DNA of 64,000 nt from Streptomyces sp. NBC_00335. GTDB lineage: Bacteria > Actinomycetota > Actinomycetes > Streptomycetales > Streptomycetaceae. Below, piece by piece: positions 3,424-36,463 of the stretch; within the stretch, counting starts at the first letter, position 1, and the number at the start of each line of letters is the position of its first letter. Location of the stretch: contig NZ_CP108006.1 of NCBI RefSeq assembly GCF_036127095.1, forward strand, positions 4,278,001 through 4,342,000, read 5' to 3'. The position numbers and the translations under genes were made by a program. The notes under the pieces are model-generated. The model did not search any database and was not told where the DNA came from. It saw only the letters and a list, made by a program, of their open reading frames with translations.

Positions 3424-5952
3424 ATGAGCGAGCACCGCCGCAAACCGCAACAGCCCCAGAGCGGTGGCCGCGCCGCCGCCCGTAGGGCTGCCCAGCAGCG
3501 CCCGTCCAGGGGCGCCGGGCGTGACGTCCCCACCGCGTCACCCAGTGGGCCGTATTCCCAGCAGCCGGGTCACGGCAGCCGTTCGGACGCCCGGAGATCC
3601 GCCGGCCGGGGCTCGGCAGGGCGGGGTAGGGGCGCCTCCGTGGGCGCCGGCCAGCCCAAGCGGTTCATCAACTACCCGCGCGGCGAAAAGATCGGCTGGA
3701 AGCGCTTCGTCCCGTCCTGGAAGCTCGTCAGCGGCTCGGCCCTGGGCTTCTTCGCGATCATCACGGTGGGCGCGGGCATCGGCATCGCTTCGGTGGGCAC
3801 ACCCGACGTGAACAAGACGGCCAAGGCGCAGAACAACGTCTTCTACTGGGCGAACGGCTCCCAGATGGTCGCAACCGGCGGGTCCGTCAACCGCCAGATC
3901 GTCTCCATCGAGGATATCCCCCGGTCCATGCAGAACGCCGTGATCGCGGCGGAGAACGAGTCCTTCGAATCGGACAAGGGCGTCGACCCGATGGGCATCG
4001 CCCGCGCCGTGTGGAACATGGCCAAGGGCGGATCCACCCAGGGCGGCTCGACGATCACCCAGCAGTTCGTGAAGAACCAGTACCTGGACTCGGACCAGAC
4101 GCTCAAGCGAAAGGTCACCGAGCTCTTCATCTCGATAAAGCTGGGCGTCAGCGAGGAGAAGAACACGATCCTCGCCGGCTACCTGAACACCGCCTACTAC
4201 GGCCGCGACGCCTACGGGATCCAGGCGGCCGCGCGCGCCTACTTCGGCAAGGACAGCAACAAGCTGAACCCCTCCGAGAGCGCCTTCCTCGCCGCCGTGC
4301 TCAAGGGCCCGAACCTCTACAACCCCGACGGCGGCATCGGCGCCGCGGCCACACCCGAAGCCAACTCCGAACGGGCCAAACAACGCTGGTCCTGGGTGCT
4401 GGACCGGGAGGTCAAGGTCGGGCGCATGCAGCAGGCCGAGCGGGACCAGTACAAGGAGTTCCCCCCACTGATCGAATCCGCCCAGGCCGCCGGCATGTCC
4501 GGGCAGATCGGCTACCTGGTCGATACGGCCAACCTCTACCTGGCGAAGAAGGGCATCAAGGTCGAGGACCTGGCCAAGGGCGGATACCAGATCCACACCA
4601 CCTTCAAGAAGGAGAAGGTGGACGCGCTGGTCAAGGCCGTCGAGGGGACCCGCGACGGGATGCTCGACGAGAAGGCGAGGCCCGAAACGGACACCTTCGT
4701 CCAGTTCGGGGCGGCCTCGGTGGACGTCAAGACCGGCGGCCTCGTGGCCCTGTACGGCGGTCCCGGCATCGACAAGAAGCACTTCAACAACAACGCCAAC
4801 ACCTCGGGCGTCCAGGTCGGCTCGACCTGGAAGCCGTTCGTGCTGGCGGCGGCCATGCAGTACGGCACCCAGAATTCGAAGGGTGAGGGGATCTCGGCCA
4901 AGAGCAAGTACCAGGCGAACGACCTCACGGTGATCAACAACCGTGCGGGCGAGCCGCTGCGCGACGGCTCCGGCAAGCCGTTCCGGCAGAAGAACGAGAG
5001 CCCGACCCCCTACGGCTACGTGACCCTGAACGAGGCGATGGAGAAGTCCATCAACGTTCCCTTCGCCCAGCTCGTCTTCGACGTCGGCCACAGCAAGGTG
5101 AGGTCGGTCGCGAAGGCGTCCGGCCTCCTCCCGGAGTCCTTCGACCCCAACGACAACGCCTCCTTCGCGCTGGGCACGTCGACCCCCAGCGCCATCCGGA
5201 TGGCCGACTCGTACGCCACCTTCGCCGCCTCCGGAATCCATCACGACCCGTACTCGGTGACCAGCGTCACGAAGGACGGCAAGGACGTCCCCGGCTTCGC
5301 GGCCCCCAAGGGCGAACGGGCCATGGACAACTCCATCGCGGACAACATCACCAAGGTCCTGCGCAACGTCGTCGAGAACGGCACCGGTACGAAGGCCAAG
5401 AAGCTGGGCCGGCCCGCGGCGGGCAAGACCGGTACCACCGACAAGAACATGTCGGCATGGTTCGTCGGCTACACCCCCGAGCTGTCCACCTCCGTGGCCC
5501 TGTTCCGCTCGGACCCGAGTGCGAAGAAGAAGGAACTGATCTCGATGAGGGGCGTGGCGGGCATTCCCTCCCTCCACGGTGGTGACATCCCGGCCGAGAT
5601 CTGGACCAAGTACATGAAGGAGGCGCTGAACGGCGAACCGAAGTCGGACTTCCCGGAGCCCGACGAGCTCGGTGTCGTCGCTCACGCCTCGGGCGCTCCC
5701 TCGCCTTCTCCCTCGCCTTCCCCCTCGCCCTCCCCCTCGGCGTCTCCGTCCCCGTCGAACTCGCCTTCCCCGTCCCCCAGCCCGAGCCCTTCGCGCAGCA
5801 GCGGAAAGCCGACCTGCAAGCCGTGGGCCATCTGCGTGCCGAGCCCCAGCGCCAGTTCGTCCAGGTCGCCCTCGCCCTCGCCCAGCAAGTCGCGCGACAG
5901 GCCGAGCGGCGGTGCCGGAGACTTCCCGATAGGGGGCTCCACGGGAGGCTGA
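3424..5952 (+). CDS. Class A penicillin-binding protein (transglycosylase/transpeptidase)
   Basis: An 842-residue bifunctional peptidoglycan synthase. A basic, disordered cytoplasmic tail (1-95) precedes one transmembrane anchor (about 100-123). The GT51 domain follows: motif 1 reads ENESFESDKGVD near residue 177 (the usual ED is EN, but the catalytic Glu is kept), and motif 2 GGSTITQQ is near 204. The transpeptidase has the active-site tetrad STWK (Ser467/Lys470), SIN at 542-544 and KTG at 668-670. The last 85 residues are a Ser-Pro repeat tail with two Cys (TCKPWAIC), probably spanning or binding the wall. It is divergent from padR and followed by a terminator-like hairpin. Confidence 0.93.
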   Translation: MSEHRRKPQQPQSGGRAAARRAAQQRPSRGAGRDVPTASPSGPYSQQPGHGSRSDARRSAGRGSAGRGRGASVGAGQPKRFINYPRGEKIGWKRFVPSWKLVSGSALGFFAIITVGAGIGIASVGTPDVNKTAKAQNNVFYWANGSQMVATGGSVNRQIVSIEDIPRSMQNAVIAAENESFESDKGVDPMGIARAVWNMAKGGSTQGGSTITQQFVKNQYLDSDQTLKRKVTELFISIKLGVSEEKNTILAGYLNTAYYGRDAYGIQAAARAYFGKDSNKLNPSESAFLAAVLKGPNLYNPDGGIGAAATPEANSERAKQRWSWVLDREVKVGRMQQAERDQYKEFPPLIESAQAAGMSGQIGYLVDTANLYLAKKGIKVEDLAKGGYQIHTTFKKEKVDALVKAVEGTRDGMLDEKARPETDTFVQFGAASVDVKTGGLVALYGGPGIDKKHFNNNANTSGVQVGSTWKPFVLAAAMQYGTQNSKGEGISAKSKYQANDLTVINNRAGEPLRDGSGKPFRQKNESPTPYGYVTLNEAMEKSINVPFAQLVFDVGHSKVRSVAKASGLLPESFDPNDNASFALGTSTPSAIRMADSYATFAASGIHHDPYSVTSVTKDGKDVPGFAAPKGERAMDNSIADNITKVLRNVVENGTGTKAKKLGRPAAGKTGTTDKNMSAWFVGYTPELSTSVALFRSDPSAKKKELISMRGVAGIPSLHGGDIPAEIWTKYMKEALNGEPKSDFPEPDELGVVAHASGAPSPSPSPSPSPSPSASPSPSNSPSPSPSPSPSRSSGKPTCKPWAICVPSPSASSSRSPSPSPSKSRDRPSGGAGDFPIGGSTGG

Positions 5953-5974
5953 CCCGAAGCCCCACAACACGGCC

Positions 5975-6011
5975 GGAGAGGGCCGTCGCACCCGGTGCGG
6001 CGGCCCTCTCC
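5975..6011 (+). terminator. Hairpin terminator after pbp
   Basis: A 17-bp GC-rich stem with one G:U pair and a short loop begins 22 bases after the pbp stop. It ends transcription before the GT87 gene. Confidence 0.7.
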
Positions 6012-6055
6012 CCTGTGTCATGGGCGCCGGCGGCGCCGTACGGCAGGATGTGCGC

Positions 6056-7516
6056 ATGACGAAGGTGCACGAGGACAGCCCCGTACTGCCCACCCAGCAG
6101 GACGAGGTGGCCGCCGCGGGGAGCGAGTTCATCGGCGGCCCGCTGGGCCGCTACGCCCGGCTGGGTGGTCACTGGCTGACCCCGGTGCGGGTCGTCGTGC
6201 TCGTCGCCCTGGGGATGTTCGCGCTCGGCATGGTGCAGAAGCTGCCCTGCTACGACTGGGCGTGGTTCCGCGGGGCCGGCTCCCAGTACACCCACGCCTG
6301 CTACTCGGACATCCCGCACTTGTACGTCGTACGCGGCTTCGCCGACGGCCTCACCCCGTACTTCGACCGGATCCCCGGCGACATGCAGTTCCTGGAGTAC
6401 CCGGTGCTCACCGGGCTCTTCATGGAGGTCGCCTCATGGATGACTCCCGGCAGCGGCTCCATGCAGCACCGGGAGCAGATGTACTGGATGGTCAACGCGG
6501 GCATGCTCATGGTCTGCGCCGCCGTGATCGCGGTGTGCGTGGCCCGCACCCACCGCAGGCGGCCGTGGGACGCGCTGCTCTTCGCCCTCGCACCCGCCTT
6601 CGCACTCACCGCGACCATCAACTGGGACCTGCTGGCCATCGCCCTGACCGCCGCGGCGATGCTCATGTGGTCGCGGGGCGGGGCACGGTCCTTCGGTGTC
6701 CTGATCGGCCTGGCCACCGCGGCCAAGCTCTATCCCGTCCTGCTGCTCGGGGCCGTGTTCGTGCTCTGCTGGCGGGCCGGCAAGTGGCGTGCGTTCGGGG
6801 AGGCGGTCGGTGGCGCCCTCGTCGCCTGGCTCGTGGTGAACCTGCCCGTGATGCTCTTCGCCTGGGAGGGGTGGCAGAAGTTCTACACCTTCAGCCAGGA
6901 GCGGCCCATCGACTTCGGATCCGTGTGGCTGCTGATCTCCCAGCGCTCCGGAAACCCCCTCGAAGGCGCCAACACCTATGCGACGGGCCTGACGCTGCTG
7001 CTGTGCGCGGGCATCGGGCTGCTCACGCTGACCGCGCCCCGCCGCCCCCGCTTCGCGCAGCTGGCCTTCCTGCTGGTGGCGGCCTTCATCCTGGTCAACA
7101 AGGTCTACTCGCCCCAGTACGTGCTCTGGCTCATCCCGCTCGCCGCGCTGGCCCGGCCGCGCTGGCGGGACTTCCTGATCTGGCAGGCCGGCGAGGTCGT
7201 CTACTTCCTGGGGATCTGGTTCTACCTGGCCTACACGACCAGCGGGGACAAGCACCAGGGCCTGCCGCTGGAGGGCTACCAGGTGGCCATCGCGGCGCAC
7301 CTGCTGTGCACGCTCTACCTGTGCGCGGTGGTCGTACGCGACATCCTGCTGCCCGAGCGGGACGTGGTGCGGCGCGACGGCTCGGACGACCCCTCCGGGG
7401 GCGTCCTGGACGGCGCCGAGGACGTCTTCACGCTCCCGCGGACGCCGAAGGCGCCGCAGGAAGCGGCGCCTTCGGAGGGTCAGCGAGTGGAATGGGGCGC
7501 ACGCCCCGGGGAGTGA
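6056..7516 (+). CDS. GT87-type polytopic membrane glycosyltransferase
   Basis: A 486-residue protein with a short cytoplasmic N-terminus (to about residue 40) and roughly ten or more hydrophobic helices. It resembles the GT87/DUF2029 family of polyprenyl-phosphate-dependent mannosyl- or arabinosyltransferases, which act on the outer face of the membrane. A conserved acidic cluster in the first periplasmic loop (YFDRIPGDMQFLEYPV) is where GT-C enzymes carry catalytic Asp residues. The tail after residue 430 is acidic and disordered. Start MTKVHEDS is chosen over the upstream ATG at 6020, which lies against the terminator. The sugar and acceptor are unknown. It converges on the alanine-racemase-like gene with one base between stops. 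Confidence 0.8.
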   Translation: MTKVHEDSPVLPTQQDEVAAAGSEFIGGPLGRYARLGGHWLTPVRVVVLVALGMFALGMVQKLPCYDWAWFRGAGSQYTHACYSDIPHLYVVRGFADGLTPYFDRIPGDMQFLEYPVLTGLFMEVASWMTPGSGSMQHREQMYWMVNAGMLMVCAAVIAVCVARTHRRRPWDALLFALAPAFALTATINWDLLAIALTAAAMLMWSRGGARSFGVLIGLATAAKLYPVLLLGAVFVLCWRAGKWRAFGEAVGGALVAWLVVNLPVMLFAWEGWQKFYTFSQERPIDFGSVWLLISQRSGNPLEGANTYATGLTLLLCAGIGLLTLTAPRRPRFAQLAFLLVAAFILVNKVYSPQYVLWLIPLAALARPRWRDFLIWQAGEVVYFLGIWFYLAYTTSGDKHQGLPLEGYQVAIAAHLLCTLYLCAVVVRDILLPERDVVRRDGSDDPSGGVLDGAEDVFTLPRTPKAPQEAAPSEGQRVEWGARPGE

Positions 7517-12286: not shown

Positions 12287-13624
12287 TTACCGGGTGGCTC
12301 CGGCGACCAGCCAGCGGCCCGAGCGGGCGCGCAGCTGGAGGGTGACCATCCGGACCAGCATCATCAGGGTCATGGCGCACCAGAGGGCCGTCAGCCCGCC
12401 GCCCAGGGCCGGTACGAGCAGGGCGGCAGGGGTGAAGACGGCGAGGGTCAGCAGCATGGCCCACGCCAGGTAGCGGCCGTCGCCCGCGCCCATCAGGACG
12501 CCGTCGAGGATGAAGACGATGCCGGAGACGGGCTGCGAGACAGCCACCACGAGCAGAGCCGGCAGCAGGGCGTCTTCGACGGCGGGATCGCTCGTGAAGA
12601 GCGGGATGAACACCGGGCGGGCCGCGATGACGAGGAGCCCCAGAACGATGCCGGAGCCGATCCCCCACTGCACCATGCGGCGGCAGACGGCCTTGGCGCC
12701 GTCGGTGTCGCCCGCGCCGAGGTAGCGGCCGATGATGGCCTGCCCGGCGATCGCGATCGCGTCGAGGGCGAAGGCGAGCAGGCTCCACAGGGAGAGCAGG
12801 ATCTGGTGGGCCGCGATATCGGCGTCCCCGAGGCGTGCGGCCACGGCGGTCGCGATCAGCAGGACCGCCCGCAGGGACAGGGTGCGGACCAGCAGGGGCG
12901 CACCGGCCTGCGCGCAGGCCCGGATGCCCTCGGCGTCGGGCCTGAGGGAGGCGCCGTGCCTGCGGGCGCCCCGGACGACCACGACCAGGTAGGCGGCGGC
13001 CATGGCGCACTGGGCGATGACCGTGCCCCAGGCGGAGCCGGCGATGCCGAGGCCGGCCCCGTACACGAGGGCGACGTTCAGGGCTCCGTTGAGGGCGAAG
13101 CCGCCGATCGCGACGTAGAGCGGGGTCCGGGTGTCCTGGAGGCCGCGGATGACGCCGGTGGCGGCGAGGACCACGAGCATCGCGGGGATGCCGAGGGCGG
13201 AGATCCGCAGGTAGGTGATCGCGTACGGGGCGACGGTGTCGGAGGCCCCGAAGAAGGAGACCAGGGTGGGCGCCGTGGGCAGGACGACCGCGACGACGGC
13301 CGCGCCGAGGAGCAGGGCGAGCCAGATGCCGTCCATGCCCTGCCGGATGGCGGCCTGGAGGTCGCCCGCGCCGACCCGGCGGGCCACGGCCGCGGTGGTG
13401 GCGTAGGCGAGGAAGACGAAGATGCTCACGGCGGTGGTGAGCAGTGCGGCCGCGATGCCGAGACCGGCCAGTTGAGGTGTGCCGAGGTGGCCCACGATGG
13501 CGCTGTCGGCCATCACGAAGAGGGGTTCGGCGACGAGGGCGCCGAAGGCGGGGACGGCGAGTGCGAGGATCTCGCGGTCGTGCCGTCTCGGGGCAGCCTT
13601 CGGTGCGGTGGGGGCCTGTCTCAT
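12287..13624 (-). CDS. MATE family efflux transporter
   Basis: A 445-residue membrane protein with about 12 helices in two related halves, close to the DinF/MATE family that exports cationic drugs or metabolites using Na+ or H+. The N-terminal half (EILALAVPAFGALVAEPLF) and the second-half repeat (VRTLSLRAVLLIATAVAARLG) show the internal duplication. It starts inside the DnaA-box-containing dnaB upstream region and is read away from it. Substrate unknown. Confidence 0.88.
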   Translation of the reverse strand: MRQAPTAPKAAPRRHDREILALAVPAFGALVAEPLFVMADSAIVGHLGTPQLAGLGIAAALLTTAVSIFVFLAYATTAAVARRVGAGDLQAAIRQGMDGIWLALLLGAAVVAVVLPTAPTLVSFFGASDTVAPYAITYLRISALGIPAMLVVLAATGVIRGLQDTRTPLYVAIGGFALNGALNVALVYGAGLGIAGSAWGTVIAQCAMAAAYLVVVVRGARRHGASLRPDAEGIRACAQAGAPLLVRTLSLRAVLLIATAVAARLGDADIAAHQILLSLWSLLAFALDAIAIAGQAIIGRYLGAGDTDGAKAVCRRMVQWGIGSGIVLGLLVIAARPVFIPLFTSDPAVEDALLPALLVVAVSQPVSGIVFILDGVLMGAGDGRYLAWAMLLTLAVFTPAALLVPALGGGLTALWCAMTLMMLVRMVTLQLRARSGRWLVAGATR

Positions 13625-30417: not shown

Positions 30418-31281
30418 TCAGCCCAGGGCGGCGAGGTAGCGGTTCGGTGCGTCGGGATCGGCGAGACCCCGCATGCTCAGCTGGGCGAGGCAGTGGTAGG
30501 CGAGGTCGGTCGAGTCGTAGACGTGGTGGGCGACCAGGGCCAGCTGCCTGAGCTGCTCGTCGGTCATGGACTCGGGGTGTCCGAAGTCGCGCACGTACAC
30601 GACATCGGCTTCGAGGAGCTGGTGCCGGGCCACGCGGAAGTCACCGCCGAAGACCACGGGGGCGATCGGCCAGCGCTTGATCGCCGCGAAGGCGTGCGGG
30701 ATGAATCCCTGGCCGCGCAGCTCCTGGTCCACGTCGCCGAACACGGGCTGGTCCTCGTACAGCGGGACGAAGGAGACCTCCGTGTGCACGGCCACGGCCT
30801 CGGCCAGTTTTCTCCGCGCGCCTTGGAAGACCATCAGCTCGGCCCCCTGGATGTCGATCTTCAGCAGGTCGAAGGTGCCGACCGCTTCGACGTCGTCCAG
30901 TCGCCGGGTGGAGACGGGGATCTCCTCGCGGATCCGGCCCCACTCGCTGAAGCCGTTGAAGAGCCCCAGCCTGTTCGTGTCGGGGCGGAAGAGGCTGGTC
31001 ATCCCGGAGCTGGTGGCTACGAAGAGCGTGTGGGTGCCGCCGTCGCCGAGGGCGTCGGGCAGGTAGGTCTCGTACGGACCCTTGCGGCGTCGCAGGGTGT
31101 CCAGGGCATCGGGCTGGGGCTCGAATCCGGTCACCCTGCACAGGCCCGCCTCCAGCATGCTCCGGTACGGCGGGTCTCCGTCGATCGGGTTGGCGCCCAC
31201 GTCGACCACGTGGGTCGGACGGGTCGGCCGCACCAGGTCGAGCAGCGGTGAAGCGGCGTGGGCCGCGGCAGTGACGGTCAT
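30418..31281 (-). CDS. FkbM-like SAM-dependent methyltransferase
   Basis: A 287-residue Rossmann methyltransferase of the FkbM type. The SAM loop is VVDVGANPIDG (about residues 25-35), a variant of the usual D-x-G-A-N-x-G motif. The LLKIDIQGAELMVFQGA stretch (near 155) matches the family's post-core motif. FkbM enzymes O-methylate sugars or natural products, often on surface glycans. It sits 49 bases downstream of the GT2 gene on the same strand, divergent from a collagen-like protein, so methylation of a surface glycan is a reasonable guess. Confidence 0.83.
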   Translation of the reverse strand: MTVTAAAHAASPLLDLVRPTRPTHVVDVGANPIDGDPPYRSMLEAGLCRVTGFEPQPDALDTLRRRKGPYETYLPDALGDGGTHTLFVATSSGMTSLFRPDTNRLGLFNGFSEWGRIREEIPVSTRRLDDVEAVGTFDLLKIDIQGAELMVFQGARRKLAEAVAVHTEVSFVPLYEDQPVFGDVDQELRGQGFIPHAFAAIKRWPIAPVVFGGDFRVARHQLLEADVVYVRDFGHPESMTDEQLRQLALVAHHVYDSTDLAYHCLAQLSMRGLADPDAPNRYLAALG

Positions 31282-31330
31282 GGGAGCTCTCCGGGTGTCC
31301 AGCTGACGGGGGCGTGAAAAGGGCGGACGG

Positions 31331-32443
31331 TCAGGCGAATGCCCGGGATCCCACGCCCAGCTTGCGGCGCGCGAACTCGAGGTTCGCGAGGATCCGGTCC
31401 TGCTGGTCGCCGGGCAGTTTGCCTTCCTGGAGCAGGCGTTCGCAGCAGTCCGACGACTCCTGGTACTCCCCGGTCCAGTAGGCGGCCACCGCGAGCTCGT
31501 CGAGTGCGCGCCAGTCGTGCCAGGCGAACTCGACGAAGAGGATGTCGTCCGGGTGCGGCACCCGTACCGCCTGCCGGGCGAACAGGTAGGCGAGGGGCCA
31601 GCGGCTTTCGAGGCGGCAGAGGCGGGCGAGGTCACCGAGGGCCTCCGCGCGTGAGGGACGGCTCTCGTGTGCGCGGAGGTAGCGGTCCATCACCTCGGCC
31701 GACGGCCTCTCGAGAGTGACCGCGAGCCTCGCGGCGTAGAGCTGCGCGCAGTAGGTCTCTTCGGCCCAGCCGCCCATGGCCACCCGGTGGTCGTAGGCGG
31801 CGAGGGACTTCTCGGGTTCTCCCGCGTCGCGCCAGCTCTGGGCCAGGTAGAACGCGTAGCGGGTGTTGTCGGGCTCTTTGGCGAGGCCTTCGGTGAGGAC
31901 TTCCGCATCGCGCAGGTACTTCGCCCGCTGGCCTTCTTCCCGGAGGCGGGCCCCGCCGCCGATGGAGAGGATGTTGAAGCCCTCGATCACGTCGCGGCTG
32001 TACTCGGTTCCGGATTCGATGTACTCGTGGAGCACGCCCACGTACCGCCAGGGCAGCCGGGTGGAGACCAGCGCCGGCCGCCAGTGGACGATCGGACCGT
32101 CGTGCAGCGCGACCTGGTACGCGTCGAGCGTCAGGTCCGGCATCCGGAACCCGGGCTCGATCTGCATTTCGTCGTCGCCGTCGATGAACAGCAGGTAGTC
32201 GGCGCCGGCGCGGGCCAGTTCGATCGCCTCGGTGCGGCTGCCGTCGAACCCCTTCCACGGCCGGTCGTGGAGCGTGCCGGGCAGGTCGGCGAGACAGTCC
32301 CGGATGACGTCCTGGGTGCCGTCGGTGGAGCCCGTGTCCACGATCACCCAGGTGTCGATCAGGGGGCGGACCGACTCCAGGCACTTCCGGATGGTCGGGG
32401 CCTCGTTCTTGACGATCATGTTCAGGCAGATGGTCGGCCTCAC
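31331..32443 (-). CDS. Family 2 glycosyltransferase with C-terminal TPR-like region
   Basis: A 370-residue protein. The N-terminal GT-A domain (1-120) has MIVKNEAPTIRKCLES, DTGSTDGTQDVI and the metal-binding DGDDE, typical of small GT2 enzymes. A helical TPR-like region (about 170-360: YAFYLAQSWRDAGEPEKSLAAYDHRV, and similar) follows; this layout resembles protein O-glycosylating enzymes. GTG start with GAGAGGGTG upstream. It is divergent from a secreted collagen-like protein rich in Gly-x-Thr triplets, a potential acceptor; no acceptor or donor is proven. Confidence 0.87.
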   Translation of the reverse strand: MRPTICLNMIVKNEAPTIRKCLESVRPLIDTWVIVDTGSTDGTQDVIRDCLADLPGTLHDRPWKGFDGSRTEAIELARAGADYLLFIDGDDEMQIEPGFRMPDLTLDAYQVALHDGPIVHWRPALVSTRLPWRYVGVLHEYIESGTEYSRDVIEGFNILSIGGGARLREEGQRAKYLRDAEVLTEGLAKEPDNTRYAFYLAQSWRDAGEPEKSLAAYDHRVAMGGWAEETYCAQLYAARLAVTLERPSAEVMDRYLRAHESRPSRAEALGDLARLCRLESRWPLAYLFARQAVRVPHPDDILFVEFAWHDWRALDELAVAAYWTGEYQESSDCCERLLQEGKLPGDQQDRILANLEFARRKLGVGSRAFA

Positions 32444-32703
32444 CGCAGCACCCTCTCGTCGGACGGATCGCGGGCGACGTTAGGGAGTACGGCTGCCGAT
32501 GGGTGGGCGGCACGCCGGTGGCGCTACCCCCCGGTGGCCGTCGGCGCAGCCGTTAGAGGGGGCCTGATCGGCCGATCTGCTGATAAATATCCCCGGCACC
32601 TCAAGATCCCGGCACATCCGTCCGTAAGCCCCAAGGACGTTCGAACTCGCAGCCGGAGCGCTACCCGTTCCGGCTCGCATTCCGTTCCGAAGGAGCGCTG
32701 CAC
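32444..32703. promoter_or_regulatory. Divergent region between the GT2 and collagen-like genes
   Basis: 260 bp. A 12-bp palindrome GATCGGCCGATC (32566-32577) is followed by an AT-rich patch (TGATAAATAT) that could hold a promoter for the collagen-like gene. No gene is visible. The AAGGAG at the end (32689-32694) is its ribosome-binding site. Confidence 0.45.
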
Positions 32704-34209
32704 ATGAGTCGTGAGCACCAGACCAAGGTCAAACTCGGTCCTGTCCCCCGCAACCGCGCCTGGATCGCGGGAGGTGCCCTGGCCTCGCTGTCCCTCGTAC
32801 TCATGGGCATGGCCACCCCCGTCATCGCGGCGGTCAATCCGGCGGTCGCGGCGGTGAGAGCCACGGCCCCGTCGGGCGGCGGCGGAGGCGATGACTGCGA
32901 GCCGCACGACGGGCCACCGCGCGACAGGAACCGCGGAGGCGGGGACGACGACGGGCACGGTGGCCGGGGAGACGACGACGGGCGCGACCACCACGACGGG
33001 CGCGACCACCACGACGGGCGCGGCGACCACGACGGCCGCGGCGACTGGGGAGACGACGAGGGGCGCGACCCCCACCACGGGCGCGACCACGGGTGCCCGC
33101 CCGTAGGCCCGACTGGGCCGACTGGGCCGACCGGTCCCGCGGGTGCGACGGGTGCGACCGGTGCGACCGGCGCGACCGGTGCCACGGGTGCGACCGGTGC
33201 TGACGGGGCCACGGGGGCGACCGGCGCCACGGGTGCTGACGGCGCTACGGGTGCTGACGGTGCGACCGGCCCGACCGGCCCGACCGGCCCGACCGGCCCG
33301 ACCGGCCCGACTGGTGCTGATGGTGCGACGGGCGCTGACGGTGCCACGGGCGCGACCGGTGCTGATGGTGCGACCGGCGCCACGGGCGCTGACGGTGCCA
33401 CGGGCGCGACCGGTGCTGACGGTGCCACGGGCGCTGACGGTGCGACGGGCGCGACTGGTGCTGACGGGGCCACGGGCGCCACGGGTGCAACCGGCCCGAC
33501 TGGTGCGGATGGTGCGACGGGCGCGACCGGTGCTGATGGTGCGACGGGCGCGACCGGTGCCGATGGTGCGACCGGCGCCACGGGTGCCGATGGTGCGACC
33601 GGCGCCACGGGTGCCACGGGTGCCACGGGTGCGGACGGTGCCACGGGCGCGACCGGCCCGACCGGCCCGACGGGTCCGACAGGTCCGACGGGTGCGACCG
33701 GTGCGACCGGTGCGACCGGGGGGTGCAACGCCATCGCCAACTACAAGCCCGCCGCCAACCGCGAGATCAAGGCGGTAATGATCAACGGGGTCGCGTACGT
33801 CGGAATCCGGGGGATCCAGCCGAACCCGACGAACTTCGACTGGCACAACCTGACCATCGCCGCGCGGAACCCGGGCTATCCCACCGGGCTTGCGTGCGGC
33901 ATCGCCGTCGATGAACACTCGAACGGGGCCAACATCGAGATCGCGACCATCGACGGGCGGGTCTTCGAGACCTTCTGCTCGGTCAACAACATGACACCGT
34001 CCCTGGACTGCGGGACGCCGATGGCTACGCACCCGTGGACCCAGGTTGTCCCCGGCCCCACGAGCGCTCCCCCGACGAACGTGGTCACCAAGAGCCAGCC
34101 CTTCAAGAGCCCGCCCGCCAAGAAGCCTGCCGTCAAGCACCAGGCTGCGAAGAAGCCGGCTGCCAAGCCCAAGCACACAGTCGACAAGGGCAACAAGCAC
34201 CGCCCCTGA
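32704..34209 (+). CDS. Secreted collagen-like protein (long form)
   Basis: A 501-residue protein. A signal-like N-terminus ([26 protein letters not shown], helix about 20-42) leads to an Asp/His/Arg-rich region (about 60-130, many [15 protein letters not shown] repeats). Residues 135-340 are about 68 uninterrupted Gly-x-y triplets built almost only of GAT, GAD and GPT, which form a collagen triple helix. A C-terminal domain (about 341-455) is homologous to that of the second collagen-like protein downstream. The Lys/Ala/Pro-rich tail ([18 protein letters not shown]) is strongly basic. Thr dominates the third position, a known site of O-glycosylation in bacterial collagens such as BclA. No sortase motif seen. 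Confidence 0.9.
33106..33723 (+). repeat. Collagen triplet-encoding repeat region
   Basis: About 68 tandem 9-bp units encoding Gly-x-Thr/Asp. Many synonymous variants (GGTGCGACC, GGCGCCACG, GGTGCTGAC) alternate, so perfect repetition is limited, though runs such as 33259-33309 repeat exactly and should be slip-prone. Confidence 0.85.
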
Positions 34210-34241
34210 CAGCAGCAGCATGACCCACCGGTGAACCCAAG

Positions 34242-34273
34242 CGCCGGGCCGCTCCTGAGGGAGCGGCCCGGCG
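34242..34273 (+). terminator. Terminator after the long collagen-like gene
   Basis: A 14-bp perfect stem with a TGAG loop followed by TTCGTGT. It lies 33 bases after the stop. Confidence 0.88.
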
Positions 34274-34321
34274 TTCGTGTGCTTGCGCTGGAGTGCGCTC
34301 CAGCTTCTACAGTGCGGGCCC

Positions 34322-35377
34322 ATGAGCATGCGATACCGAATTCTGGGTGGGACCGGCATCGAGGTCAGCACGCACTGCCTCGGCACGATGATGTTCGGCG
34401 CGGTGGGCAATCCGGATCACGAGGAGTGCGCGCGGATCATCCACGCCGCGCTCGATCACGGGATCAACTTCGTGGACACCGCGGACATGTACTCGGCCGG
34501 GGAGTCCGAGACGATCGTGGGGAAGGCCCTCAAGGGCCGGCGGGACGACGTCGTGCTCGCGACCAAGGTGCACTTCCAGATGGGCGAGGGCCGCAACCGC
34601 AGCGGGAACTCCCGGCGCTGGATCGTGCGTGCCGTCGAGGACAGTCTCCGCCGACTGGACACGGACTGGATCGACCTCTACCAGGTGCACCGGCCCGATC
34701 ACGGCACGGACGTCGAGGAGACCCTGTCCGTCCTCGGGGATCTGGTCCGGGCCGGCAAGATACGGGCTTTCGGCTGTTCCACCTTCCCGGCCGAGGAGAT
34801 CGTCGAAGCGCACCACGTCGCCGAACGGCGGGCTCTGCCGAGGTTCCGGACCGAGCAGCCGCCGTACTCGATCCTCGCGCGCGGGATCGAGAGCAGTGTG
34901 CTGCCGGTGGCCCGGAGGTACGGGATGGGTGTCCTGACCTGGAGCCCGCTCGCGTCCGGATTCCTGAGCGGGAAGTACCGGCTCGGCAGCGCCATCGACA
35001 TGACCTCGGGGCGTGCGGCGCTGACTCCCGCCCGCTTCGACCCCACGATTCCGGGCAATGTCGCGAAGCTGGAGGCCGTGGAGCAGCTGGTGGAGCTCGC
35101 CGACTCCATCGGCTGCACGCTGCCCGAGCTGGCGGTGGCCTTCCCGCTGGCGCATCCCGCCGTCACCTCCGTGATCATCGGGCCGCGGACCATGGAGCAG
35201 CTGGAATCACTGGTGAAGGGCGCCGGGCTGGTCCTCGATGACACGGCTCTCGACCGGATCGACGAGATCGTGGAGCCGGGCCGGAATCTGTACCACCCGG
35301 ACGGCGCCTGGCGTTCGCAGGCGCTGGCGGATGTCGCGCAGCGGAGGCGGGCACTGGCAGACCGGTCCGCGGCTTAG
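34322..35377 (+). CDS. Aldo/keto reductase
   Basis: A 351-residue AKR with the catalytic tetrad: Asp and Tyr in VDTADMYSAGESE (about 45-57), Lys in LATKVHF and His in YQVHRPDHG. The NADP-binding end carries PLASGFLSGKY and SVIIGPRTMEQL. Members reduce aldehydes, ketones or sugars; the substrate is unknown. It is inserted between two collagen-like genes on the same strand but behind a terminator, so it has its own promoter. An internal start at 34328 is also possible. Confidence 0.88.
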   Translation: MSMRYRILGGTGIEVSTHCLGTMMFGAVGNPDHEECARIIHAALDHGINFVDTADMYSAGESETIVGKALKGRRDDVVLATKVHFQMGEGRNRSGNSRRWIVRAVEDSLRRLDTDWIDLYQVHRPDHGTDVEETLSVLGDLVRAGKIRAFGCSTFPAEEIVEAHHVAERRALPRFRTEQPPYSILARGIESSVLPVARRYGMGVLTWSPLASGFLSGKYRLGSAIDMTSGRAALTPARFDPTIPGNVAKLEAVEQLVELADSIGCTLPELAVAFPLAHPAVTSVIIGPRTMEQLESLVKGAGLVLDDTALDRIDEIVEPGRNLYHPDGAWRSQALADVAQRRRALADRSAA

Positions 35378-35395
35378 GCGGATGGACGCTCCCAT

Positions 35396-35409
35396 GTTTC
35401 ACGTGAAAC
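35396..35409. other. parS site 6
   Basis: Exact GTTTCACGTGAAAC, 19 bases after the aldo/keto reductase stop. Confidence 0.95.
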
Positions 35410-35419
35410 AGAGACGGGT

Positions 35420-35433
35420 GTTTCACGTGAAAC
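35420..35433. other. parS site 7
   Basis: Exact GTTTCACGTGAAAC, only 24 bases centre-to-centre from parS 6, the tightest parS pair of the window. Confidence 0.95.
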
Positions 35434-35641
35434 ATGGCCCATGGCCGCAGGCTCTGGCTGCGCAGACCCGTGTGGCCGTGTAGCAGGCCGCCAAGTGGCG
35501 GTGTGGGCTGCGCCGTTCCGCTGACTCATGGGCGCGCCGGTCGGGCTCGCGGGGTCGGGGTCCTCAGGATTGCCCGCGGAGCCCGGTCGTACTTCCGGAC
35601 TTCGCAGGTCGATTCGATCCGATGTCTGCGAGGAGCGGTAC

Positions 35642-36463
35642 ATGAGTTCTGAGAACAAGGCCCGTACCTACCTGGGGCCCTTGCCCCGACGGGCCGGCTG
35701 GCTGACGGGAGGCACGCTGGCCTCGGTGGCGCTGGTGCTGGGGGGTCTGGCGTCCCCGGCGGTCGCGCTGGCCGAGGCGTCCGGGAGCCCGGACCACTGC
35801 CAGTCCCAGCACCAGAGAGCGGGTGCGCCGTCGGCGGCTCACGGCGACGACTGCAAGGTGGGCCCGCGGGGCCCGCGCGGACCCAAGGGACCCAAGGGTG
35901 CGACGGGCCCGACCGGGCCCCGGGGCGCGACCGGTGCGACGGGCCCGACCGGGCCGCGAGGCTACCCGGGCGCGACGGGTGCCACTGGCGCGACGGGTGC
36001 CACCGGCGCCACCGGCGCGACGGGCGCGACCGGCGCCACCGGCGCGACCGGCGCCACCGGTGCCACCGGGCCGTGCAACGACATCGACAGCTACTCGCCC
36101 TCGAACACCGAGGACTTCCACGCCGCCCTCACCGGTGGGATCGCGTACGCGGGACGGGCATCCGTGCCGGGCGGCGTGCCGGTCTGGCAGAACATCAGCG
36201 ACGCCGACGACAACCCGGGCTTCCCCGTTGGACGTGCCTGCGGCATCTCCATCGCGGCCCAGGGCAATAACGCGTACATCAAGGTGCTGACCACGAACGG
36301 CCAGGTGTACCAGACACACGGCGACGTGAACGGCGCGAACTTCATCTGGGACGAGGCCTGGACCCAGCTTCTGCCGGCTCCGAACCCGATGCTCGGACTC
36401 CGCAGCAAGGGCATCGAGTGGAAGGGCGACCTGGCCTCCTCCGGCGCGCCGAGCGGTCAGTAG
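35642..36463 (+). CDS. Secreted collagen-like protein (short form)
   Basis: A 273-residue paralogue of the long collagen-like protein. It starts [24 protein letters not shown], close to the other's [20 protein letters not shown], and has a signal-like helix (about 20-42). A collagen stretch (residues 74-144, about 24 triplets) begins with charged [13 protein letters not shown] and ends with GAT repeats. The C-terminal domain (145-250) shares CN-I--Y, G-AY-G, W-N, NPG-P-G-ACGI and WTQ with the paralogue. GAGGAG precedes the ATG. Unlike the long form it has no basic tail or Asp/His-rich linker. Confidence 0.9.
35861..36073 (+). repeat. Collagen triplet-encoding repeat (short form)
   Basis: About 24 Gly-x-y triplets; the second half is nearly uniform GGCGCCACC/GGCGCGACC units and therefore internally repetitive. 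Confidence 0.8.

Follow-up and report, generated by a model that had tools for sequence, protein, structure and literature searches.

A predicted threonine glycosyltransferase linked to secreted collagen-like proteins in Streptomyces

Two genes for secreted collagen-like proteins, named here colL and colS, lie close to thiC in the 9.0-Mb genome of Streptomyces sp. NBC_00335, in the company of a family 2 glycosyltransferase (GT) and an FkbM-family methyltransferase, which raises the question of whether these enzymes decorate the collagens. The window analysed is a stretch of 64,000 nucleotides (contig NZ_CP108006.1, positions 4,278,001 to 4,342,000), and coordinates of this locus refer to it. 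Outward from thiC, the gene order is the FkbM methyltransferase and the GT with its TPR region (both on the minus strand), followed by colL, an aldo/keto reductase gene and colS (all on the plus strand), with gene calls that are consistent across open frames, codon-position GC and Pfam. This layout agrees with the initial annotation, which had described two secreted paralogues sharing a C-terminal domain (both proteins have signal-like starts, and the domains are 33% identical), GT and FkbM genes divergent from the long collagen gene, and a reductase gene between the paralogues. The evidence presented below suggests that the GT probably O-glycosylates the collagen tract, whereas the methyltransferase may have a more local role.

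The long protein, ColL (32704-34209, plus strand, 501 residues), and the short one, ColS (35642-36463, plus strand, 273 residues, with an inner ATG as the true start), both passed the curated cut-off of the Pfam Collagen family (PF01391), scoring 93.8 and 55.2 bits, respectively, against 27.2. ColL begins with a signal-peptide-like region (32704-32832, boundary set by eye) that is related to the N-termini of ColS and of relatives, followed by a His/Asp/Gly-rich linker containing three RGD triplets (32890-33102, boundary also by eye). Its Gly-X-Y tract (33106-33726, residues 135-341) consists of 69 uninterrupted triplets, comprising 39 GAT, 15 GAD, 13 GPT, 1 GPA and 1 GGC, so that Thr occupies the Y position in 52 of them (75%). 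The ColS tract (35861-36076) has 24 triplets, with Thr at Y in a fraction of 0.67 (67%) and Lys or Arg in 0.25. Thus, the predominance of Thr at the third position that had been noted initially holds for both proteins, as does the count of 24 triplets in ColS, while the figure of about 68 for ColL has to be raised by one. As many as 25 different 9-base units encode the ColL tract, indicating that the pattern is maintained in the protein sequence and does not reflect a young DNA expansion. As a measure of chance occurrence, at a threshold of at least eight triplets, 20 unrelated Streptomyces stretches of 20 kb each (400 kb) yielded one run, of nine triplets and mostly GRT, and none was left in this DNA once Arg-rich, Cys-rich and stop-containing runs had been filtered out.

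Divergent from colL, across a 260-bp gap (32444-32703) in which no sigma-70-like site was found, the GT gene (31331-32443, minus strand, GTG start) encodes 370 residues with a Glycos_transf_2 match of 47.5 bits (cut-off 23.3) and, by eye, no signal peptide. The enzyme had been labelled initially as a GT2, a description that its structural model corrects: with a predicted local distance difference test score (pLDDT) of 95.5, the model comprises a GT-A domain and a C-terminal helical-repeat TPR solenoid. Pfam TPR matches in this region fall below their cut-offs. The motifs DTGS and D-x-D (D88, D90) are invariant in 46 aligned sequences (alignments A1 and A2). Among solved structures, its fold comes closest to SunS and ThuS, followed by TPR proteins (OGT among them) and TarS/TarP, and profile matches include GmaR, SunS and the TPR region of OGT. 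Membership of the SunS peptide S-glycosyltransferase family (TIGR04195) was rejected, since the enzyme scored 34.1 bits against the 350 required. Two features of SgtA-type collagen O-N-acetylglucosamine (O-GlcNAc) transferases, a GT-A domain followed by TPR and a gene placed beside that of a Thr-rich collagen, are found here.

Related GTs form two clades (support 100/99 and 100/100) that are 38-41% identical to each other, as calculated for the first row of A1. The clade of the window enzyme groups less firmly (support 94/68) with Nocardioides/Marmoricola enzymes, in the midst of enzymes from Proteobacteria, Acidobacteriota and other groups. Both clades have members near thiC together with a ColL-type collagen, a pattern that would fit the replacement of one enzyme by the other at the same site. 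At 13 Streptomyces GT loci of the window clade, with at least one contig represented twice, a gene for a PMT_2-like membrane glycosyltransferase lies between the collagen and the GT (L091, at 5733-7244, L093, L097, L152, L156, L160, L165, L168, L171, L172, L175, L178 and L179); this gene is missing at the window locus, and distant relatives of it occur elsewhere in the same genome.

The association between GT and collagen was surveyed in 121 Streptomyces genomes, 30 of which had a strong GT match (at least 200 bits; G044 was counted despite its broken gene, and a partial match of 48 bits in G112 was excluded, both here and from the 31 loci described below), 26 the collagen C-terminal domain, and 22 both. 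Indeed, this domain was present in 22 of the 30 genomes with the GT and in 4 of the 91 others (indicative Fisher p 8e-14). By coordinates, a GT is no more than 5 kb away for 26 of the 40 matches to the domain. Conversely, 31 other Streptomyces GT loci were inspected, and mechanical scoring over the same distance gave a collagen-like tract for 26, including a dubious one (L099); among a further 35 loci, which overlap with this set (L092/L154 and L093/L156, for example, are the same contigs) and are not independent of it, a Thr-rich collagen is present in 20 and a tract-like run of any kind in 25. Co-occurrence with collagens in related genomes was the survey by which the initial interpretation could have been refuted, and its GT2 half comes out strongly supported.

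Composition of the tracts follows the same division. Among Streptomyces proteins with the C-terminal domain of this family, the median fraction of Thr at Y was 0.73 in GT-linked collagens (n=26) versus 0.06 in unlinked paralogues (n=10; indicative p 4e-5), which carry mostly Lys or Arg at this position. This comparison leaves out tract-less proteins (four unlinked and one linked, L102) and a duplicate unlinked locus (L148, identical to L089), and two of its unlinked tracts are short, with 4 and 8 triplets. Furthermore, in G044 the GT is in two pieces and the neighbouring collagen has lost its tract, an apparent joint decay that could also stem from a sequencing fault.

Collagens of other kinds were also observed in the genus. 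Outside the window (L003, 1495-2268), the genome studied here encodes a further secreted collagen, one that is not accompanied by a GT. Its triplets are charged (Lys/Arg/Asp), its C-terminus is SH3-like by eye, and Thr accounts for 0.08 and Lys or Arg for 0.41 of its Y positions. A second Streptomyces type, with GAQ/GPQ triplets and a different C-terminal part, lies near GTs in L094, L098, L174, L177, L180 and L181, in L180 together with RmlB/RmlD-like sugar genes.

On a wider scale, species genomes were scanned with a profile, and the 80 top-ranking stretches among 526 confirmed ones were retained. They correspond to 79 loci, 44 of them outside Streptomyces, so that close relatives of the GT only are covered. 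A collagen with Thr in at least 0.3 of Y positions was found within 5 kb in 31 of these 44 loci, at a median distance of 525 bp, and a tract within 2 kb of the GT in 29. Since 17 of the 44 have less than 3 kb of sequence on one side, the 27 fully flanked loci were also counted separately, and 20 of them have a Thr-rich collagen. Linked loci include members of Comamonadaceae, Nevskiaceae, Lysobacteraceae, Myxococcota, Planctomycetota, Verrucomicrobiota and Nocardioidaceae, and one of Holophagaceae (Acidobacteriota). The recurrence of GT relatives beside Thr-rich collagens in unrelated bacteria suggests a widespread bacterial collagen modification. The sorting motif IPTL-CTERM was present in 6 of 77 scanned open reading frames (ORFs) neighbouring non-Streptomyces GTs (L184-L227), hinting at a surface-sorting route in those bacteria.

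GT relatives were also found in 20 records of plasmids and 5 of phages. Eight plasmid records were examined, and a tract was present in the stretch for six (three from Cupriavidus and one each from Methylobacterium, Mesorhizobium and Peribacillus); in the other two, from Citrobacter and Acinetobacter, the GT neighbour is an autotransporter-type protein without a tract. In phage Tunturi_5 (L252), the one phage record of the five that was examined, a GT relative and a tail fibre that contains GPT/GAT collagen triplets are separated by 4-6 kb (features at 6001-7014 and 12550-12801). These records, together with the patchy presence of the GT in Streptomyces (30 of 121 genomes) and the fast change of collagen heads, could mean that GT and collagen travel together as a mobile surface module and are neighbours through joint transfer, not as enzyme and substrate. 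Such hitch-hiking seems to us very unlikely, as it leaves the Thr at Y unexplained, tight spacing is often retained, and the same collagen family is accompanied by two distant GT clades.

Several observations weigh against the proposal that the GT modifies the collagens. Six of the 31 other Streptomyces GT loci lack a credible tract within 5 kb (L075, L081, L096 and L100, plus L102, whose collagen has no tract, and L099, whose match is dubious), and some linked collagens are poor in Thr at Y (0.24 in L103, 0.16 in L104 and L094, and 0 in L095/L098). Two of the ten unlinked paralogues are Thr-rich, namely those of G051 (0.59, with a GT elsewhere in the genome) and G120 (0.50, with no strong GT). 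In addition, the rows compared are phylogenetically related and the Streptomyces sets overlap, which makes all p values given here indicative. Within 15 non-Streptomyces genomes, each with one GT, the fraction of Thr at Y was 0.69 in linked (n=15) versus 0.50 in unlinked (n=25) tracts (p 0.09), a weak contrast in a comparison based on 38 selected stretches in which two tracts classed as unlinked lie 6 and 8 kb from the GT. Other collagens of these genomes are often Thr-rich, which points either to an enzyme working in trans or to a different origin of the Thr richness. Likewise, in a phylum-wide sample of 296 genomes, the GT was present in 8 (at E 1e-60), and a collagen was found at only 5 of 9 GT places. 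Finally, Holophagaceae GTs in L188, L195 and L201 (and in L202, with the same layout) adjoin flagellar switch genes and have no collagen, showing that the GT family is wider than collagens and making flagellin glycosylation possible for these relatives.

These exceptions bear on a further explanation, namely that the GT modifies another substrate, such as a flagellin-like protein, a cell-wall polymer or a peptide natural product, and is merely located near collagens. Besides the flagellar neighbourhoods, it finds backing in the structural proximity of TarS/TarP, which act on wall teichoic acid, and of SunS, which acts on a glycocin, in a GT located beside lipid-A-type genes (L216), and in the orphan GTs of L075, L081, L096 and L100. 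Nevertheless, the proximity of GTs to Thr-rich collagens on plasmids as well as in several phyla, the contrast in Thr at Y within Streptomyces and the joint decay in G044 speak against it, and we regard it as improbable.

The second enzyme of the locus raises a more specific question. The FkbM-family methyltransferase (30418-31281, minus strand, 287 residues) passed the curated scores of both PF05050 (Methyltransf_21; 88.7 bits, cut-off 22.7) and TIGR01444 (51.5 bits, cut-off 37.7). Methylated sugars occur on the Bacillus collagen glycoprotein BclA, and the initial annotation had raised the idea of a putative collagen coat, O-glycosylated and possibly methylated, in which the GT would add a hexose that FkbM then O-methylates, yielding a methylated collagen glycan. 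In line with this proposal, FkbM follows the GT on its strand after a gap of 49 bp, the two genes may be co-transcribed, and the pair is kept in the near relative G250. Moreover, in a metagenome-assembled genome of Hydrogenedentota a GT is followed after about 16 bp by the truncated start of an FkbM gene (63% identical over 63 residues), and the Peribacillus plasmid p16118 (L259) has the order collagen-GT-GT-FkbM, plus an exosporium protein, although its FkbM may be only distantly related to that of the window. However, at E 1e-20 FkbM was detected in 4 of 392 Streptomyces genomes and in 2 of the 296 genomes of the phylum sample, the window genome being included in both counts. Among the loci searched for it, only the window genome and G250 have it between thiC and the GT, and in L149 thiC directly follows the GT. 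FkbM occurs without the GT in the stretches examined of G051, G353 and, outside the genus, G521. The four best plasmid FkbM relatives examined have no collagen tract nearby, and Methyltransf_21 is not among the 25 of 63 families listed for 77 of 140 neighbour ORFs of non-Streptomyces GTs, where a single FkbM could hide. The G250 locus also has what by eye looks like a recombinase gene, placed between thiC and FkbM along with a duplicate of the 3' end of thiC (L264, 5893-7685); this is probably a small integrative element using the thiC end.

The pairing with collagens that had been claimed for both enzymes therefore stands for the GT (22 of 30 versus 4 of 91 genomes), but not for FkbM as a general rule (4 of 392). 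Its sparse distribution, and its presence at loci without the GT, make methylation a possible local elaboration and not a defining part of the system. FkbM may methylate the sugar in a small clade only, and we consider the methylated glycan possible but rather doubtful.

Returning to the GT as the probable collagen-modifying enzyme, we infer the following course of events. The predicted GT2-TPR protein would act as a cytosolic protein O-glycosyltransferase, whose TPR solenoid could keep the Gly-X-Y chain unfolded and in place for the GT-A domain to add a sugar, GlcNAc or another hexose, to Thr at the Y positions of ColL and ColS. GlcNAc on Thr is the first guess because SgtA, which has a matching layout, transfers this sugar to Thr. 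Glycosylation of the unfolded tract would take place in the cytosol, before secretion; the modified chains would then be exported and trimerise, forming a glycosylated triple helix. With little Pro, tracts dominated by GAT would be expected to make weak helices, and the purpose of the sugars may be to stabilise a Pro-poor triple helix, to which we would give slightly less than an even chance. Bolder still, and on the whole unlikely, would be the combined proposal that one GT-A/TPR family serves as collagen Thr-glycosyltransferase across phyla, that the sugar on Thr at Y takes over the stabilising role of animal hydroxyproline and makes Thr-rich bacterial collagens glycoproteins by design, that GT-free collagens use charged triplets instead, and that the Streptomyces trimer ends in a six-bladed propeller to which each chain contributes two blades.

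This last element rests on the C-terminal domain of ColL (33724-34077), which is predicted to be all-beta and to resemble two propeller blades (alignment A3, VIA-align; model pLDDT 90). A possible parallel is provided by the two-blade lectins RSL and BambL, which close their propeller as trimers. The propeller model is weakened by a PliI match, and no Pfam domain was found in the head of either protein. The corresponding domain of ColS spans 36074-36430. In ColL the C-terminal domain is followed by a Lys/Pro/Ala-rich tail (34078-34206), with 11 Lys among the last 50 residues. The motif LPXTG is absent from both proteins. Assignment to the LPXTG-anchored Scl adhesins was rejected, since ColL, in addition to lacking the motif, scored 103.6 bits against 400 (NF038330) and 86.8 against 325 (NF038329), and ColS scored lower.

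The aldo/keto reductase gene (34322-35377, plus strand, Pfam Aldo_ket_red) is kept in the near relative G250, with no match of at least 60% in 39 other loci compared and none above 55% in 79 loci; it is a bystander, unrelated to collagen modification. Sites resembling parS (TGTTTCACGTGAAACA, with no more than one mismatch) were observed at nine window positions (37, 12194, 12229, 19597, 19643, 35395, 35419, 44670 and 50976), two of them between the reductase gene and colS, a distribution compatible with an origin-proximal ParB cluster.

Prokaryotic collagens are described in a 2022 review as mostly not glycosylated, their richness in Thr and Gln being tied to hydration networks (PMC8968730). 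No report of collagen glycosylation in Streptomyces was found among the titles and abstract beginnings listed in searches of the open-access literature, and a word search of the S. coelicolor glycoproteome paper (PMC6593405) did not return the word "collagen". If the linkage described here is that of an enzyme and its substrate, many Thr-rich bacterial collagens would be glycoproteins, and recombinant bacterial collagens produced without the GT would differ from the native material. An adjoining GT-TPR gene together with Thr at Y would then provide a ready rule for spotting glycosylated collagens, and the charged, GT-free paralogues of the same genus would offer a natural contrast for what stabilises Pro-poor triple helices.

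Among known systems, Bacillus BclA is a collagen glycoprotein with GPT/GAT triplets, a repertoire with Thr in the third position that ColL and ColS share, and its glycan is made by a multi-gene pathway, whereas the window locus has one GT. GmaR, the flagellin O-GlcNAc transferase of Listeria, and the S-glycosyltransferases SunS and ThuS give the best profile or fold matches of the GT, but act on other substrates. In animals, work by Mann and colleagues in 1996 reportedly related glycosylated Thr to the stability of Riftia cuticle collagen. Many glycosylated Thr residues associated with stability are indeed described for this protein (PMC11766948), with no related enzyme implied. The closest precedent appears to be the SgtA-BclA3 pair of C. 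difficile, in which SgtA is described as adding beta-O-GlcNAc from UDP-GlcNAc to Thr, or to a substituted Ser, of BclA3 collagen peptides; this enzyme has 358 residues, with a GT-A domain and a C-terminal TPR, and its gene lies immediately upstream of the GPT-rich bclA3 (PMC7157674). Judged by this description, the window GT resembles SgtA in its GT-A and TPR architecture, its similar length and its Thr-rich collagen neighbour. The setting is different, as BclA3 belongs to the spore exosporium of a member of Bacillota, whereas the Streptomyces collagens are secreted proteins with a signal region and another head. On this analogy, the principle known from SgtA and BclA3 would extend to actinobacteria and across phyla.

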